Below are positions 4,465 through 43,117 of a stretch of DNA of 43,117 bases, piece by piece. Location of the stretch: positions 1-43,117 of IMG/VR virus record IMGVR_UViG_3300010354_000179; one strand, 5' to 3'. The translations under genes were made by a program, and so were the position numbers. The notes beneath the pieces are model-generated. The model worked only from the letters and a program-made list of their open reading frames with translations. It was not told where the DNA came from and searched no databases. Positions within the stretch are counted from its first letter, which is position 1. Every line of letters begins with the position of its first letter. Source of the stretch: a virus.

Positions 4465-4514
4465 GCCGCCTCGGGAATCGAACCCGACCCGATCACTCGG
4501 GAGCCGCTGGCGGC
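4465..4514 (-). ncRNA. T-loop RNA T1 (50-nt tRNA-elbow-like motif)
   Basis: Read on the minus strand: closing stem GCCGCC/GGCGGC; mini-arm AG-CGG-CT; arm CCCGA-GTGA-TCGGG with a GNRA loop; T-arm TCGGG-TTCGATT-CCCGA; then ACGA. There are no unpaired linkers. It starts 8 nt after the stop of the 59-residue gene and precedes DUF932. Confidence 0.85.
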
Positions 4515-8419: not shown

Positions 8420-9154
8420 TCAGATCCCTCGGATGTCGCCGAAGACGAGCGCGTGGAGTCGGGGTGAGAGATTCCATCCTCGGCGAGCGACCTGGTCGAA
8501 GACAAACGACCGGATGCGAGCGAGGAGGACGTCTGGCGTGGTGCCTTCGGGCATGAGCCAGATGTTCCCGGGTGAGACTTCCGGGAGGTAGGAGGCGAGG
8601 AAGTTCTCGACCTCGGCGATGTCGTCGAGGGTGGAGACGACGAACTTCCAGGCGGTGTCGTGCTCGCTCAGGACGCTCAGCGCTTCGGGGTTGATTCGCC
8701 GATCCTCGGTGATGCCGCTGTTCGCCAGTTTCGGCGAGCAGTTCCAGCGGAGCAGCCCTTCCCGGCTGCGCTGGAGGAGCGCTTCGTTCGGGATGATCGT
8801 CCCGTTCGTCTCGATCTCGGCGCGGTCGTCCCAGAGATCGAGGAGCGCTGCGAGCGCTGTCTGTTGGACGAGCGGCTCTCCACCGGTGACGACGAGGACC
8901 GGGCGCACAGTTTCATCGGTGAGGCTGCGAAGCGATGCGACGATCTGCTCTAGCGGGAGGCGCTTCAGTTCGGTCGCCCGGTCGAAGGCGACCCCATTCT
9001 TCCCGGTCCAGTCCCAGGTGTATGGGGTGTCGCACCATGAGCAGTCCAGATTGCAGAGTCCGAGGCGGAGAAAGACTGCTGCCCTTCCCTGCGAGGGTCC
9101 TTCTCCTTGCAGGGTCGGGCCGAAGAACTCAGAGACGGACAGGCTCTCAGGCAC
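8420..9154 (-). CDS. queE: 7-carboxy-7-deazaguanine synthase
   Basis: A 244-residue radical-SAM enzyme that converts 6-carboxytetrahydropterin to 7-carboxy-7-deazaguanine. The Fe-S cysteines are Cys34, Cys38 and Cys41 in CNLDCSWCDT. The N-terminal GPTLQGEGP and the VVTGGEPL motif (near residue 90) are typical of QueE. It starts with GTG 9154, overlapping the end of queD by 8 nt. It sits third from last in the deazaguanine operon. Confidence 0.95.
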   Translation of the reverse strand: MPESLSVSEFFGPTLQGEGPSQGRAAVFLRLGLCNLDCSWCDTPYTWDWTGKNGVAFDRATELKRLPLEQIVASLRSLTDETVRPVLVVTGGEPLVQQTALAALLDLWDDRAEIETNGTIIPNEALLQRSREGLLRWNCSPKLANSGITEDRRINPEALSVLSEHDTAWKFVVSTLDDIAEVENFLASYLPEVSPGNIWLMPEGTTPDVLLARIRSFVFDQVARRGWNLSPRLHALVFGDIRGI

Positions 9155-9566
9155 GACGGATCTCAGCGGTGCAGGCGGTCGTCTCCTGGACGGTGACGCG
9201 TTCGACGACGAGCGGAGCGAGCCGCTCCTGCAGGAGCCGCAGCGCGAGGCTTGCCAGATTCTCAGCGGTTGGCTGGCATGGGAGGACGACGACGCCGGGG
9301 AGATCCCGCATCGCGTCGAGCAGCGGGTCGTCTTCGCCGAGGAGGAGCCGGTGGTCCCAGAGGTCGTGAACCTCGGCGAGCGCCTCCTTTATCCGGGCGA
9401 AGTCGATGACCATCCCGTGCTCCGGGGAGTCGTCCTGAAGGATCGGCCCGGAGACATCGACGGTCAGCCGGTAGCGGTGGCCGTGCAGGTTGCGGCACTT
9501 CGTCTCATGGCGGGCGACCCGATGCCCTGCGTCGATGTCAACGAAGCGGCGGACGCTGGCGATCAT
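9147..9566 (-). CDS. queD: 6-carboxy-5,6,7,8-tetrahydropterin synthase
   Basis: A 139-residue member of the QueD/PTPS family acting after FolE. Zinc ligands are visible as His15, His28 and His30, with Cys24 of KCRNLHGH as the catalytic cysteine. The VIDFARIK and LWDHRLLL segments and the later PTAENLA motif (with its Glu) complete the active site. Length is normal. ATG 9566 overlaps the preceding gene by 4 nt; longer extensions are unsupported. Confidence 0.95.
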   Translation of the reverse strand: MIASVRRFVDIDAGHRVARHETKCRNLHGHRYRLTVDVSGPILQDDSPEHGMVIDFARIKEALAEVHDLWDHRLLLGEDDPLLDAMRDLPGVVVLPCQPTAENLASLALRLLQERLAPLVVERVTVQETTACTAEIRRA

Positions 9567-9991
9567 GGCACCATCCTTTGGTAAGCGTTCATGCGCTTCT
9601 TGCTCTTGTCGATCTGGTTGTTCGCGAAGCGGGAGTAGCCGGAGGTGAAGGGCGCTCGGATCTCGGGCCAGACCTCCCGCATGAGAGCGGTGTAGTGCCG
9701 GTTCGCTGTCGTCACCACATCGGCTTCGTCGATGATGCCGAGGTCCTCGGCTTGCCTTCGGATCTCGTCCGCAGTAACCGCTCCCGGGTCTGTGATCTTC
9801 ATGTCGTAGGGCGCGAGGACGGTTGTCAGCCTGACGAGGCCGTGCTTCGCGCTGATGACGAAGAATCGGGAGAGCGGCGCGAGCGACATCGCGTAGTCGA
9901 GTTGCGTGCGAAAGATGTTCCCGGTGTAAAGGTGCATCGCTGGCGCAGGCTGCCGGAGTTTCCTCAGCCCGCATGAGATCACGACGATCAT
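9563..9991 (-). CDS. DUF6884-like protein inside the deazaguanine operon
   Basis: A 142-residue protein starting M-I-V-V-I-S-C-G-L-R-K-L. It has the pattern I-S-C-G, A-P-A, LYTGNIFR (about 22-29), VISAKHGLV (about 45-53) and APYDM (about 60-64). This matches the DUF6884 family of phage and bacterial proteins with a possible nucleotide-type binding fold and no fixed activity. It overlaps queC before it and queD after it by 4 nt each, so it is co-translated with the preQ0 genes. That placement suggests a part in base supply or transfer, which is inference. Confidence 0.75.
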   Translation of the reverse strand: MIVVISCGLRKLRQPAPAMHLYTGNIFRTQLDYAMSLAPLSRFFVISAKHGLVRLTTVLAPYDMKITDPGAVTADEIRRQAEDLGIIDEADVVTTANRHYTALMREVWPEIRAPFTSGYSRFANNQIDKSKKRMNAYQRMVP

Positions 9992-10692
9992 CTGTCCGCC
10001 CGGGTCGCGGTTCTCCAGAAGGAGGGGTCCTCGTAGACGGTCGGGTCGTGAACGCCTGCGAGGTGGAAGGCTTCGGCTCGTTCGACGCAGGTCCCGCACC
10101 GCCCGCAATGAACCGAGCCGCCCTTGTAGCAGGACCAGGTGTCTTCCCACGGGACGCCGATCTCAGCGCCTCGGCTGGCGATCCCTGCCTTGTCCCGGTG
10201 GACGAATGGGGCGACGATGCCTTTCCAAACGGGCGACATGCCGCTCATGCCGACGAGCGCTGCTGCGTTCGCTGCGGCGATGAACTCAGGGCGGCAGTCC
10301 GGGTAGATGTAATGGTCTCCACCATGCACCCCGGTCGCGACATAGTCGGCTCCCTCGGCGATGGCGATCGCAGCGGCGACCGAGAGCATCATCATGTTCC
10401 GGTTCGGGACGACGGTCGCCTTCATCGTGGCTTCTGCGTAGTGGCCCTCAGGGATCTCGCCTCCACCGGTGAGCGATGAGGTCGCGATGAGTCTCGTGAT
10501 CGAGGAGAGGTCGACGACGGAATGCTGCGCGCTGAGCCTGGAGGCGCAGAGCGCAGCGAAGTCGATCTCGCGCCGGTGCCGCTGCCCATAGTCGACGGAG
10601 ACCAGGTGGAGGGAGTGCCCTTCGTGGTGGAGGTGGTAGGCGAGGCAGACGGAGTCCATCCCACCGGAGACGATCGCAACGGTCCGGGTCAT
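9988..10692 (-). CDS. queC: 7-cyano-7-deazaguanine synthase
   Basis: A 234-residue ATP-dependent enzyme that turns 7-carboxy-7-deazaguanine into preQ0. The PP-loop VSGGMDSV is at residues 8-15 and the SVDYGQRH motif near residue 37. The C-terminal zinc site SCYKGG...HCGRCGTCVER has four cysteines. It is single-domain QueC with no glutamine-amidotransferase fusion, so the expected product is preQ0 rather than a formamidino derivative. It overlaps the DpdA gene by ATGA. Confidence 0.95.
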   Translation of the reverse strand: MTRTVAIVSGGMDSVCLAYHLHHEGHSLHLVSVDYGQRHRREIDFAALCASRLSAQHSVVDLSSITRLIATSSLTGGGEIPEGHYAEATMKATVVPNRNMMMLSVAAAIAIAEGADYVATGVHGGDHYIYPDCRPEFIAAANAAALVGMSGMSPVWKGIVAPFVHRDKAGIASRGAEIGVPWEDTWSCYKGGSVHCGRCGTCVERAEAFHLAGVHDPTVYEDPSFWRTATRADR

Positions 10693-11681
10693 GCTTTGTC
10701 CTTGAGTAGCAGGATGTGGCGGTGGCGGGCCATGACGCCATGAATGAGGGGTCCGACTTTCGGTGCGTCCTGATCGGTCGGGCTGAGGCTGCGAGGCGGC
10801 TGCGATCCGGGGAAGCCGAGGACAGCGTGCAGGAATGGGCCGCGCTCGTGCTCTCGGAGCCGCGGAGCGAGGCTGGCAGGCGGGGTCACTTTCCACCGAC
10901 GCTGCAGGTTCTGCTCTAGGAGTTGTTGTCCTCGGATCGCGACCCGGGTGACATCTCGCCGGGTGTGGACGGTCGATGAGGCGATGCGCCGCCAGTCCAG
11001 ACCGTAGGAGGTCCGCAGCAGGTTCGCGAGGCGGGCTGCGTCCTTTCCATCGAGGCGACAACTCACCCGCTTCCCGAGGGTCGGATCGAAGAGTTGCAGG
11101 TTCGCGAAGCGGAAAGCAGCGGAGTAGCCGGACGAGTCGACGCTCCACCACGGAAGATTCATCATGAGGTCCGGGTGCGTGACCCCCCACCCGTGGAAGC
11201 GGAGGTGCGGGAAGTTCTCCTGCGCGTAGCGCATGATCGAGAGCGCCCACCGGAGCAGCCGTTTCGGCTCGCTCTTATGCGGGACCATGCCGCCCAGCCC
11301 GAGGAAGTCGACTCCCTCGTCGACATAGGGGTGAAGCGCTTTCGGCTCCGCCCCGTAGTGGACGGTCGGGACGAGGCCGAGGTGCCGGGGTGCTGCCTTC
11401 CAGTTCCGCAGGGTCGCTTCCTCGTTGCCGATGACATCGAGGCTCGCAGTCCAGAACAGGGCGCTCCTCCATCGTGCCGCCCATTCGTAGAACTCGTCGA
11501 GGTCGATGTGCGCGCCTTGCGATGCGGCGGAGAAAGCGCCGGAGTCGCCGATCAGCCGGAGACCCCACTCTGCGTATTGCCCGATGTCGTGCTCTCGGAA
11601 GTAGTGGAAGGAGAGCAGGGTGTTCACCGGGAGGTCGATGTGCACATCGTCCGTCTCGGCTGCGCTCACAGATTCAGCCAT
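10689..11681 (-). CDS. dpdA: DpdA-like DNA-guanine transglycosylase
   Basis: A 330-residue TIM-barrel-type protein related to tRNA-guanine transglycosylase and phage DpdA, which exchange guanine in DNA for a 7-deazaguanine. Visible motifs are LIGDSGAFSA (Asp46, candidate acid), ASLDVIGN (Asp82, candidate nucleophile region), GLGGMVPHK near 135, HGWGVTHPDLM near 163 and SVDSSGYS near 180. The tRNA-TGT zinc site is not apparent. It is followed directly by queC. ATG 11681 lies 16 nt inside the 3' end of the ParB-like gene, so translation may be coupled. This enzyme makes DNA, not tRNA, the likely target of the pathway. Confidence 0.85.
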   Translation of the reverse strand: MAESVSAAETDDVHIDLPVNTLLSFHYFREHDIGQYAEWGLRLIGDSGAFSAASQGAHIDLDEFYEWAARWRSALFWTASLDVIGNEEATLRNWKAAPRHLGLVPTVHYGAEPKALHPYVDEGVDFLGLGGMVPHKSEPKRLLRWALSIMRYAQENFPHLRFHGWGVTHPDLMMNLPWWSVDSSGYSAAFRFANLQLFDPTLGKRVSCRLDGKDAARLANLLRTSYGLDWRRIASSTVHTRRDVTRVAIRGQQLLEQNLQRRWKVTPPASLAPRLREHERGPFLHAVLGFPGSQPPRSLSPTDQDAPKVGPLIHGVMARHRHILLLKDKA

Positions 11682-12465: not shown

Positions 12466-13037
12466 GTCCATCGTGCTCGGGCAAAGGCTTCGATCGTTGC
12501 GGAGAGTTCCTGCGCGACGAGGAAGGCGAGGCGACGCGCTTCGGCTGCTGCGCCTCGGGCGGTTCCGCCTTCGATCGGGAGGGCGGTGTCGTGGCTCTCG
12601 CTGTCGATGCGGAAGATGCCGTAGTGGCTTGCCTTGCCGGTGAGGAGCAGAAGGTTCGCGTCGAGGCTCTGCGGGAGGTAGCGGGCGAAGCCGAAGACGA
12701 CGACCCTCCAGGCGTGGGTCTCTCTCGTGAAGTCGCTGTAGTTGCGCTCAGGGACGACGAGGAATAGCGGCGGGGCGGTCCCGCCGAGGACATACCCTCC
12801 TCGGATGTGCGACCCCCAGGTTTCCCGGGTGAGCGTCGAGTAATGGAAGGAGCCGCCGCGCAGCGTCTGCTCGTGGATTCGCTGAGCGTCCCACCAGGCG
12901 ATCCCTTCGATGTCGTCCCGATGCGCGATCGTGAGTTCGTCGAGGAGATCGAGGCGATGCTGAATCGCTGGCACCGCCCGGTCGACGAGCCGAGCGATCC
13001 TCGTCCTCGCGTCTGGCTTGCTCTGCTGCCGGGTCAT
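12462..13037 (-). CDS. Unknown protein downstream of ERF
   Basis: A 191-residue protein. The N-terminal 40 residues are basic and helical. Residues 60-150 look like an alpha/beta fold with aromatic-rich strands (GGSFHYSTL, TRETWGSHIRGGYVLGG, LFLVVPERNYSDF, AWRVVVFGFARYL). A C-terminal helix (AAAEARRLAFLVAQELSATIEAFA) follows. I do not recognise a family. It overlaps the ERF gene by ATGA and a 53-residue gene by ATGA, so it belongs to a recombination-type operon. A nuclease or ERF accessory is possible but not shown. Confidence 0.65.
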   Translation of the reverse strand: MTRQQSKPDARTRIARLVDRAVPAIQHRLDLLDELTIAHRDDIEGIAWWDAQRIHEQTLRGGSFHYSTLTRETWGSHIRGGYVLGGTAPPLFLVVPERNYSDFTRETHAWRVVVFGFARYLPQSLDANLLLLTGKASHYGIFRIDSESHDTALPIEGGTARGAAAEARRLAFLVAQELSATIEAFARARWT

Positions 13038-13786
13038 CGCGCACCGGCTTCTGCGGTCGTGTCGAGGCTCGTGACCGCAGCCTCTACCCAGCGGAGCGCG
13101 ACATCGTGCTGAGCGACCGGGAGATCGGCGAGGGGTCCGAACTCTGCGTGGAAGCGGGAGCGCAGATCGGACCAGGCGTCGGTGCCGTAGGTTGCTTTCA
13201 CTCCGGCGACGAGTTCTCGGATGCCTGCTTCGGCGTCGGAGCGTTCGCTGCTCGGCTGCTCCGGGGTGCGGGTGCTTTCGCCGACTCCGTCGAAGGGACG
13301 CCACGAGTCGTCCTGCGGCGGGCGGGTGGGGCGCTGCGCCGGTCGTCCGGCTGCCTGCTGGCGGGGTGCGGCGCTGGCGCCGTCGTCGTCCTCGGCGGCG
13401 AGACCGAGGAATGCGAGGGCGGAGTAGCGGCGCCCGTAGGTGACAGCGGAGCCGGTCTCCTGAGCGGTCCGTCCGGCGGGCAGGCGCAGAGTCGGGCTGG
13501 CGAGCCACTCGCCGGACGAGTGGAGGAGGACGGTGCGGATCTCGACGGAGTGGCCGTCGTCGCTCGTGGCGATCGGCTGCAGGAGAGCGAGACCGTGCCG
13601 AGCGAGAGTCGGTCGGCAGGAGGCGAGGACATCGGCGAGATCAGCGTAGGTGTAGCCGAACGATGCGCCCTTGCTGCTGGCGATCGTCGCCTTCCGTCGC
13701 TTGGTGATGTCGTCGAGTTCGGCTGAGGCGGCGACGAAGGCTGCGGCGACTGCTGCGATCGTCTCGGATTGCGGGGTGGTGGTCAT
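13034..13786 (-). CDS. erf: ERF-family single-strand annealing protein
   Basis: A 250-residue recombinase of the ERF family, which anneals complementary single strands during phage recombination and concatemer formation. Typical features are the ITKRRKATIASSK segment (about 27-39), SFGYTYADLADV (about 42-53) and GSAVTYGRRYSALAFLGLA (about 108-126). A Pro/Gln-rich linker follows near 140-180, then a C-terminal helical domain. It is read from ATG 13786 behind T-loop RNA T2 and a GAGGAG ribosome site. Given the absence of a phage polymerase, this is the main DNA-metabolism enzyme besides HNH. Confidence 0.85.
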   Translation of the reverse strand: MTTTPQSETIAAVAAAFVAASAELDDITKRRKATIASSKGASFGYTYADLADVLASCRPTLARHGLALLQPIATSDDGHSVEIRTVLLHSSGEWLASPTLRLPAGRTAQETGSAVTYGRRYSALAFLGLAAEDDDGASAAPRQQAAGRPAQRPTRPPQDDSWRPFDGVGESTRTPEQPSSERSDAEAGIRELVAGVKATYGTDAWSDLRSRFHAEFGPLADLPVAQHDVALRWVEAAVTSLDTTAEAGAR

Positions 13787-13832: not shown

Positions 13833-13882
13833 GCTGCCCGAGGAATCGAACCTCGCCCGCCGGAGCGGGGACCATCGGCAGC
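13833..13882 (-). ncRNA. T-loop RNA T2
   Basis: Closing stem GCTGCC/GGCAGC; mini-arm GA-TGG-TC; arm CCCGC-TCCG-GCGGG with a UNCG loop; T-arm CGAGG-TTCGATT-CCTCG; then ACGA. A 7-bp hairpin (AGCCGAG/CTCGGCT) lies between it and the ribosome site of ERF. This is the only copy preceded by another structured RNA rather than a stop codon. Confidence 0.85.
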
Positions 13883-13902
13883 GGCTGCGCTGCTTTCTGA
13901 GC

Positions 13903-14046
13903 GGCGCTCGCAGGCGAGCGGCACGGCGGGCTGCCTTCGGCACAAGCACGACCGTTGACGCTGCTCCGCCCTGCTTAGACGAGCAGCGCAGGCTCCCTTC
14001 ACCCGAAGGGACAACGGGCTAGCCGTGCCGCTCGCTCACGAGCGCC
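13903..14046 (-). ncRNA. 144-nt multibranched structured RNA
   Basis: A long closing helix pairs 13903-13910 with 14039-14046 (8 bp) and, after a 3x3 internal loop, 13914-13927 with 14022-14035 (14 bp). Inside, 13952-13957 pairs with 14012-14017 and encloses two hairpins: 13959-13966 with 13981-13988 (8 bp) and 13995-14000 with 14005-14010 (6 bp). A further hairpin pairs 13932-13935 with 13939-13942. A loop AAGCA (13976-13972) could pair with TGCTT (13948-13944) as a pseudoknot. No open frame of note covers it. Orientation is assumed from the flanking genes. No known class recognised. Confidence 0.7.
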
Positions 14047-14057
14047 GCCCGCTGAGG

Positions 14058-14237
14058 CTACCCGCCGAGTGTGCTCGTGATGATCTGCAAGCGCAGGTAG
14101 TCGGTCGGCTTCATGTAGACCGCTGCCGCCTTCGCTTCGATCTGCTCCAGCACCTCGGCGGGCAGGAGGACGGAGACCCGGCGGTTGTCGCCCGGGAGAG
14201 GTCGCGGGCCGCGCTTGCTGCTGAATCCGGTGGTCAT
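14058..14237 (-). CDS. Ribbon-helix-helix-type small protein (RHH-1)
   Basis: A 59-residue protein with a basic head (SSKRGPRPLPGDN) and then the Arc/MetJ-like pattern RRVSVLLPAEVLEQIEAKA: one beta strand and a first helix, then PTDYLRLQII as the second helix. It would dimerise and bind DNA through its strand. It lies behind T-loop RNA T3. It is one of three such proteins in the genome (with 19250-19465 and 30075-30272) and so a candidate ligand for the repeated GCAAG/CTTGC operators. Confidence 0.7.
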   Translation of the reverse strand: MTTGFSSKRGPRPLPGDNRRVSVLLPAEVLEQIEAKAAAVYMKPTDYLRLQIITSTLGG

Positions 14238-14286: not shown

Positions 14287-14336
14287 GGCGCCTCGGGAGA
14301 CGATCCCGACCCGGTTGCCCGGGAGCCGCTGGCGCC
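14287..14336 (-). ncRNA. T-loop RNA T3 (variant T-loop)
   Basis: Closing stem GGCGCC/GGCGCC; mini-arm AG-CGG-CT; arm CCCGG-GCAA-CCGGG with a GNRA loop; T-arm TCGGG-ATCGTCT-CCCGA; then ACGA. The loop has A first and T fifth where most copies have T and A, a swap at the position of the tRNA 54-58 contact. T11 shares it. Confidence 0.85.
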
Positions 14337-14923: not shown

Positions 14924-14973
14924 GCTGCCTCGGGAGTCGAACCCGACCCGATCGCTCGGGAGCCGCTGGCAGC
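14924..14973 (-). ncRNA. T-loop RNA T4
   Basis: Closing stem GCTGCC/GGCAGC; mini-arm AG-CGG-CT; arm CCCGA-GCGA-TCGGG with a GNRA loop; T-arm TCGGG-TTCGACT-CCCGA; then ACGA. It is followed by hairpin CGAGGC-AGGCA-GCCTCG and AAGGAG. Confidence 0.85.
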
Positions 14974-16337: not shown

Positions 16338-16387
16338 GCTGCCCTGCGAGTCGAACGCAGCCCGCCGAAGCGGGAGCCGCTGGCAGC
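16338..16387 (-). ncRNA. T-loop RNA T5
   Basis: Closing stem GCTGCC/GGCAGC; mini-arm AG-CGG-CT; arm CCCGC-TTCG-GCGGG with a UUCG loop; T-arm CTGCG-TTCGACT-CGCAG, changed on both strands compared with T4; then ACGA. Followed by hairpin TGGAGGA-GAG-TCCTCCA. Confidence 0.85.
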
Positions 16388-16704: not shown

Positions 16705-16754
16705 GCTGCCTCGGGGATCGAACCCGACTCGCCGGAGCGAGAGCCGCTGGCAGC
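16705..16754 (-). ncRNA. T-loop RNA T6
   Basis: Closing stem GCTGCC/GGCAGC; mini-arm AG-CGG-CT; arm CTCGC-TCCG-GCGAG, with the second base pair changed to T-A relative to other copies; T-arm TCGGG-TTCGATC-CCCGA; then ACGA. Followed by hairpin CGAGGC-AGGCA-GCCTCG. Confidence 0.85.
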
Positions 16755-18972: not shown

Positions 18973-19113
18973 TCAGGACTCGTCGTCGTCCAGGTCGCTG
19001 ATCCTACCCTCTAGCGTTGCGAGCGCAACGGCGAGGAGACCGATCAGAGCGAGGCTGGCGAGAGCGAACTGCCAGAACGGGTAGCCGGGGGTCGCTTCGA
19101 CGAAGCCGATCAT
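18973..19113 (-). CDS. Small single-pass membrane protein
   Basis: A 46-residue protein, M-I-G-F-V-E-A-T-P-G-Y-P-F-W, with one hydrophobic helix (QFALASLALIGLLAVALAT, about 15-33) and an acidic tail ending DLDDDES. It starts in an ATGA overlap with the previous gene. Holin-like or signalling roles are possible. Terminator at 18932-18969 follows. Confidence 0.6.
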   Translation of the reverse strand: MIGFVEATPGYPFWQFALASLALIGLLAVALATLEGRISDLDDDES

Positions 19114-19506: not shown

Positions 19507-19556
19507 GCCGTCTCGGGAATCGAACCCGACCCGCCGGAGCGGGGACCATCGACGGC
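19507..19556 (-). ncRNA. T-loop RNA T7
   Basis: Closing stem GCCGTC/GACGGC, unique to this copy and changed on both sides; mini-arm GA-TGG-TC; arm CCCGC-TCCG-GCGGG; T-arm TCGGG-TTCGATT-CCCGA; then ACGA. Followed by hairpin CGCTCGG-AACAG-CCGAGCG. Confidence 0.85.
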
Positions 19557-30592: not shown

Positions 30593-30642
30593 GCTGCTCT
30601 GCGAGTCGAACGCAGCCCGCCGCAGCGGGAACCGTTAGCAGC
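30593..30642 (-). ncRNA. T-loop RNA T8
   Basis: Closing stem GCTGCT/AGCAGC; mini-arm AA-CGG-TT, a pair combination found only here; arm CCCGC-TGCG-GCGGG with a UNCG loop; T-arm CTGCG-TTCGACT-CGCAG; then ACGA. Followed by hairpin CGAGGC-AGGCA-GCCTCG. Confidence 0.85.
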
Positions 30643-41163: not shown

Positions 41164-41213
41164 GCCGCTCTCGGGATCGAACCGAGCCGCCCGAAGGCGG
41201 AGCCGCTAGCGGC
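41164..41213 (-). ncRNA. T-loop RNA T9
   Basis: Closing stem GCCGCT/AGCGGC; mini-arm AG-CGG-CT; arm CCGCC-TTCG-GGCGG with a UUCG loop and a stem changed on both sides; T-arm CTCGG-TTCGATC-CCGAG; then ACGA. Followed by hairpin CGAGGG-ACCCG-CCCTCG. Confidence 0.85.
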
Positions 41214-41903: not shown

Positions 41904-41953
41904 GGCGCTCCGGGGATCGAACCCGGCCCACCAAGGTGGGGACCGTCAGCGCC
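41904..41953 (-). ncRNA. T-loop RNA T10
   Basis: Closing stem GGCGCT/AGCGCC; mini-arm GA-CGG-TC; arm CCCAC-CTTG-GTGGG with a CUUG loop; T-arm CCGGG-TTCGATC-CCCGG; then ACGA. It carries changes in all four stems relative to T4. Followed by hairpin CGAGGG-GCACG-CCCTCG. Confidence 0.85.
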
Positions 41954-42699: not shown

Positions 42700-42749
42700 G
42701 CTGCCTCGGGAGACGATCCCGACCCGCCGAGGCGGGAGCCGCTGGCAGC
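42700..42749 (-). ncRNA. T-loop RNA T11 (variant T-loop)
   Basis: Closing stem GCTGCC/GGCAGC; mini-arm AG-CGG-CT; arm CCCGC-CTCG-GCGGG; T-arm TCGGG-ATCGTCT-CCCGA, the same swapped loop as T3; then GCGA, the only copy without ACGA. Followed by hairpin CGCTCGG-AAGCG-CCGAGCG. Confidence 0.85.
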
Positions 42750-42953: not shown

Positions 42954-43014
42954 GGAGATGAATCTAGCAAGCCTTGCGAACGCTTGCACGCTCCGAGGGA
43001 AAGAATCTGCGAAG
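42954..43014 (-). promoter_or_regulatory. Leaderless promoter L10
   Basis: -35 GTGCAA (42989-42984), 17-nt spacer GCGTTCGCAAGGCTTGC, -10 TAGATT (42966-42961), 7 nt to ATG 42953. Its upstream AGATTCTTTC block lies in the terminal repeat, right after the MuF stop. Confidence 0.85.
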
Positions 43015-43117
43015 GCGCTCAGCCTTCGTCGATCGGCTGCGCCTCGTCGCCATCGAACTCGTCATCGTCGACGCCTTCGCCCTGATCGCCATCGACCCCC
43101 GGCTCCGGGACGATCGA
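42995..43117. repeat. Terminal direct repeat, copy 2
   Basis: Identical to 1-123. It duplicates the 3' end of the MuF gene; no extra gene should be called here. Confidence 0.95.

Follow-up and report, generated by a model that had tools for sequence, protein, structure and literature searches.

In this work, we present a computational analysis of a strongly folded, non-coding stretch of 148 nt, located at positions 13901-14048 of the virus record IMGVR_UViG_3300010354_000179, whose entire length of 43,117 nt is referred to here as the window. The stretch lies between a small open reading frame and the tRNA-like leader of a gene for an ERF-family ssDNA annealing protein. Tentatively and at low confidence, we read it as an RNA stem acting in cis between the two genes, in the simplest case for processing of the RNase III type or for insulation, a view suggested by fold models and by the position of the element among its neighbours.

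The original prediction described a multibranched RNA at 13903-14046, and the fold of this segment turned out to be beyond chance. On the plus strand it reaches -89.6 kcal/mol against a mean of -62.5 for shuffled sequences (z -6.9), and on the minus strand -94.2 kcal/mol (z -6.0), with none of 200 shuffles attaining the fold in either case. The proposed 22-bp closing helix is present, formed on the plus strand by 8 + 15 pairs flanking an internal loop, but the structure runs 2 bp further, to 13901-14048. An inverted-repeat search of the window delimited its arms at 13901-13927 and 14022-14048 (27 nt, 89% complementary, spacing 94 nt). For the complete 148 nt the z-scores amount to -8.1 (plus) and -6.4 (minus), and 0 of 300 shuffles reached the fold. 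In a scan of the 43,117-nt record this region had the lowest energy among all 150-nt segments of both strands. The window has no other stem in which 21 or more of 24 bases are complementary and the arms lie within 200 nt, and three block shuffles gave zero cases. As had been stated, the element occurs once in the record and holds no credible reading frame: with the phage's own genes as training set, codon log-odds range from -0.33 to -0.54 and are negative in all six frames, whereas ERF scores +0.44 and the upstream small ORF +0.46. A remnant gene at this place was rejected on these scores. The element and its neighbours, in minus-strand order, comprise the following features.

14058..14237, minus strand: upstream small ORF of 59 aa, no Pfam or PHROG match
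14022..14048, minus strand: P1 closing helix, 5' arm, from the inverted repeat and the fold
14012..14017, minus strand: P2, 5' strand (CCGTTG), from the fold, position taken from the dot-bracket
13994..14011, minus strand: P3, hairpin of 7 bp with a 4-nt loop (TCCCTTC GGGT GAAGGGA), from the fold
13958..13989, minus strand: P4, hairpin of 9 bp plus 4 inner pairs, with TAAGCA in the loop region, from the fold
13952..13957, minus strand: P2, 3' strand (CAACGG), from the fold
13937..13951, minus strand: P5, weak small hairpin containing TGCTT, from the fold, with low pairing probability
13901..13927, minus strand: P1 closing helix, 3' arm, from the inverted repeat and the fold
13833..13882, minus strand: T2, tRNA-like element of the ERF leader, directly downstream of the structure, one of eleven paralogous elements
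13034..13786, minus strand: ERF-family ssDNA annealing protein gene (Pfam PF04404, E 2.9e-21; phrog_2324, E 7.5e-33)

The interior of the plus-strand fold consists of a 6-bp helix enclosing hairpins of 7 bp and 8 bp, and of a separate small hairpin. Thus the proposed 6-bp helix with its two hairpins was recovered, but the small hairpin, with pairing probabilities of only ~0.2-0.9, is the weakest part of the anatomy. On the minus strand the plan is nearly the same; P1 comprises 26 pairs with one mismatch, and two A-C mismatches of the plus-strand closing helix turn into G-U pairs. By inspection, AAGCA in the loop of P4 and TGCTT in P5 could form a kissing contact or pseudoknot on either strand, with one additional G-U pair in the minus-strand version. 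Most of the fold signal comes from the closing helix, since the inner 94 nt folded alone give z -1.3 and -1.2. The 70-nt domain, in which the 6-bp helix holds its two hairpins, reaches significance by itself (z -3.7 and -4.0, 0 of 300 shuffles).

As regards strand, the original prediction needs to be turned over. All eleven tRNA-like elements, the ERF gene and the small ORF are minus-strand features; an RNA co-transcribed with them would have the reverse-complement sequence of the one first folded, with nearly the same plan. Counts of G-U pairs, five on the minus strand vs two on the plus, lean weakly to the gene strand, although these numbers are small. Folded as DNA, the element gives z -7.4, equal in strength to the RNA fold; as its stems pair almost perfectly on either strand, an RNA and a DNA acting form cannot be told apart from sequence alone.

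The placement between two genes and ahead of T2 was confirmed. Reading along the minus strand, the stop codon of the small ORF, which by eye is ribbon-helix-helix-like, is followed by 9 nt, the 148-nt structure, 18 nt, T2, a hairpin, a Shine-Dalgarno sequence and ERF. In ten of eleven leaders of this type the spacer from the stop codon to the T element measures 6-15 nt, in contrast to 175 nt at T2, of which 148 nt are the structured element. The element is thus an extra in a leader that otherwise follows the usual design. Folding the whole minus-strand context of 291 nt leaves the 148-nt domain as it is. In that fold T2 is replaced by pairing of GCAGCG from the 18-nt spacer with the T2 acceptor strand (~13880-13896), and this pairing, read as GCAGCG CAGC CGCTGC, excludes the tRNA-like fold. 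It may represent a switch or an artefact of the plain energy models, which are devoid of tRNA-like tertiary contacts.

The T elements themselves, each 50 nt long, tRNA-like and set before a gene, are found at these positions.

4465-4514, 13833-13882, 14287-14336, 14924-14973, 16338-16387 and 16705-16754, minus strand: tRNA-like T elements
19507-19556, 30593-30642, 41164-41213, 41904-41953 and 42700-42749, minus strand: tRNA-like T elements, continued

They share a 6-bp acceptor-like helix, a 7-nt linker with GG, a 5-bp hairpin and a T arm whose loop is of the UUCGANU type (AUCGUCU in two copies); in most of them a hairpin follows, and then a Shine-Dalgarno sequence and ATG. Across the 11 copies 100% of the pairs are kept and 12 of 16 pairs have changed on both sides. 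ARAGORN found no tRNA, T2 scored 25.2 bits (E 0.0046) with the Rfam mascRNA-menRNA model, below its cut-off of 42.5, and IMG/VR relatives gave no convincing match. With its covariation, this leader set is a stronger and more valuable RNA finding than the structured element.

Several other features of the record deserve mention. A repeated palindrome, CTAGCAAGCCTTGC(T/G)A(G/A)CGCTTGCA, of ~30 nt, stands just before start codons and has no exact match in IMG/VR.

3235, 4703, 14570, 15409, 17088, 20282, 30984, 41540, 42265 and 42954, with a weaker one at 18997: copies of the palindrome

On the minus strand it ends with TAGGAT or TAGATT a few bases before ATG and, by eye, looks like an operator combined with the -10 element of leaderless genes. 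Positions 1-123 and 42995-43117 are identical, forming a 123-base direct terminal repeat that gives the record the appearance of a complete genome. A QueD-like gene lies at 9147-9974 on the minus strand (Pfam PTPS, E 6.6e-29), beside minus-strand ORFs which by eye are QueC-like (9988-) and DpdA-like, a transglycosylase (10689-11681); the region 9147-11681 (minus) is likely a 7-deazaguanine DNA modification cluster.

The suggested likeness to a riboswitch or ribozyme found no support in the Rfam search that had been proposed as a check. None of 4227 models, riboswitches and ribozymes included, matched at gathering score anywhere in the window. With the region alone and E up to 10, the best matches to the element were miRNA models, at 20.3 bits against a gathering score of 79, and nothing relevant to either class appeared. 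That ERF is controlled by a riboswitch or by a ribozyme that cleaves itself, to which only the leader position and the branched plan point, is highly improbable; there are also no relatives able to show a conserved core.

Searches for relatives were extensive. Among 50,697 phage records there was no similar DNA, and 72,556 plasmids yielded short GC-rich chance pieces only. Relatives were sought via ERF, the ParB-like protein, the small ORF and the portal; none carried the structure. Overall identity of those reached via ERF, ParB-like and portal proteins is ~29-68%, and for the small ORF at 14058-14237 no relatives were recovered. In the nearest IMG/VR relatives the portal proteins show 58-63% identity (68% in a single partial match) and ERF 43-48%, and no homolog of the element was found in some 20 related IMG/VR phages. 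No close relatives emerged from viral contigs when they were sought by the promoter palindrome and the T element. The comparison with related phages, regarded beforehand as a possible refutation, did show the structure missing and a different coding sequence directly before ERF, but at 43-48% ERF identity these phages are too distant for the absence to count strongly. With no relative found, there was no alignment and hence no covariation test for the element. Its covariance model recovers the element itself in the window at 172 bits and gave nothing convincing in 60 loci or 23 whole records; being built on a single sequence, it is a weak model with 0.59 bits per position, and its negatives carry limited weight. 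Matches of ~80 nt in one planctomycete genome (E 0.003 and 0.05) were given no weight.

The main rival is a reading at the level of DNA, which we consider somewhat unlikely. It would make the element what is left of a small insertion bounded by terminal inverted repeats, or else a site that binds protein or forms a cruciform, and the RNA fold would be a by-product. It agrees with arms that are near-perfect on both strands and a DNA fold of equal strength, with the position as an additional block in a leader of the usual kind, and with the presence of terminal inverted repeats (27-nt arms, 89%), as in a MITE-type element. CTGAG on both flanks (~13898 and 14053) might be a 5-bp target duplication, yet these 5-mers are not directly adjacent to corresponding ends of the arms, being 4 nt off on one side, and easily arise by chance. 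Against the same reading, the element is single-copy in the phage, and further copies were found neither here nor in other genomes, only repeats with other interiors. The P2 domain, significant without the closing helix, is more than a plain terminal inverted repeat would need.

The planctomycetes bear on this question as well. The pair of 12-base inner arms, searched with a gap of 80-110 nt (94 in the element), was found at 11 viral places, all unrelated, and at 17 bacterial ones. Fifteen of the latter are in planctomycetes and nearly all belong to one dispersed repeat family, whose identical inner arms at a similar distance favour a DNA-level repeat. The interiors are unrelated, however, and the remaining two matches (L131, L133), outside the family, look like chance, which shows that a collection this large does produce the arm pair at random. 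In Planctomycetaceae (loci L123-L130, L132 and L134-L139) the dispersed inverted repeat GTGAGCGGCACGGCGCTAGCCGCCGGT occurs in many copies with varied interiors, and its arms share, with gaps, 12 bases with P1 and the nearby CTAGCC. The Planctomycetaceae repeats (L123-L139) resemble the element in having arms that contain GAGCGGCACGGC and GCCGTGCCGCTC at 80-110 nt, and differ from it in their unrelated interiors, many copies per genome and arms that continue differently. As relatives of the element they were rejected on account of their interiors: a coincidence, or at most a remote lead.

The surroundings were also scanned for transcription signals. No promoter-like site was found near the element and no terminator-like site at it, and neither side of either strand carries a U-run, as a rho-independent terminator would. 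A terminator or barrier lacking a U-tract, halting transcripts that run either way from one gene into the other, would suit the GC-rich stem immediately past the stop codon, yet it has no need for a branched interior and, with no promoter recognised between the element and ERF, would silence that gene unless a promoter was missed; we think it decidedly improbable. A replication origin was rejected, the extremes of cumulative GC skew lying near the genome ends.

A phage ncRNA of ~150 nt acting in trans on host or phage RNA or protein, excised from a transcript or made from its own promoter, would agree with the non-coding sequence, the compact branched plan and the strong stems. We hold it to be unlikely, given the lack of promoter-like and terminator-like sites and of any homolog. 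The segment with the least structure can pair with the Shine-Dalgarno regions upstream of the T-leader genes to an extent that 1.9% of random genome windows equal, a figure uncorrected for how the segment was chosen, and the plus strand pairs there equally well; antisense action on these regions is not significant.

We return to the cis-acting intercistronic stem. Counted in its favour are the strong fold with its long duplex, the domain kept intact in the 291-nt context, the weak lean of G-U pairs to the gene strand, the P2 domain that is significant without the closing helix, the 175-nt spacer where ten of the eleven leaders have 6-15 nt, and the way the element fills the intercistronic space, starting 9 nt past a stop codon and ending 18 nt before T2. 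A duplex of over two helical turns is the type of substrate that RNase III cuts, and predicted P1 on the minus strand attains the ~two turns. Counted against it are the missing relatives and promoter-like site, and the other gene pairs of the phage, which lack such an element; the equal fold as plus-strand RNA and as DNA does not single out RNA action. On this model a leftward polycistronic minus-strand transcript would carry the non-coding module between the small ORF and the tRNA-like ERF leader. RNase III, a dsRNA endonuclease (PMC10503654), would cut the closing helix and separate two messages, that of ERF beginning near T2; alternatively, the stem would keep the messages apart simply by blocking exonucleases and ribosome run-through. 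Transcription through the element, the action of RNase III and any effect on ERF are what we infer. Distinctly less probable is a new phage ncRNA family joined to the tRNA-like leader, where RNase III would trim the branched domain and RNase P or a similar enzyme would cut at T2, so that one transcript would yield both a processed message for ERF and a small, stable RNA.

As a DNA inverted repeat the element would be ordinary. Were it an RNA module, the phage would have one element of unusual stability, for processing or regulation, ahead of its recombination gene, and this would show how a phage with tRNA-like leaders cuts or insulates its polycistronic messages.

Among known systems, intercistronic RNase III stems of the T7 and lambda type likewise place an extended duplex close to a start region, between two genes that belong to a block read in one direction. 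Those known phage sites are simple or bulged hairpins recurring at several junctions, whereas the present element, predicted from sequence, is 148 nt long, branched and single. The SAS and ESAS leaders of cluster K mycobacteriophages are non-coding inverted-repeat elements just before genes, ESAS being 17-nt imperfect repeats in many copies (PMC12699233). Our element too is a non-coding inverted repeat just upstream of a phage gene, distinguished from ESAS by its one copy, 27-nt arms and structured interior.
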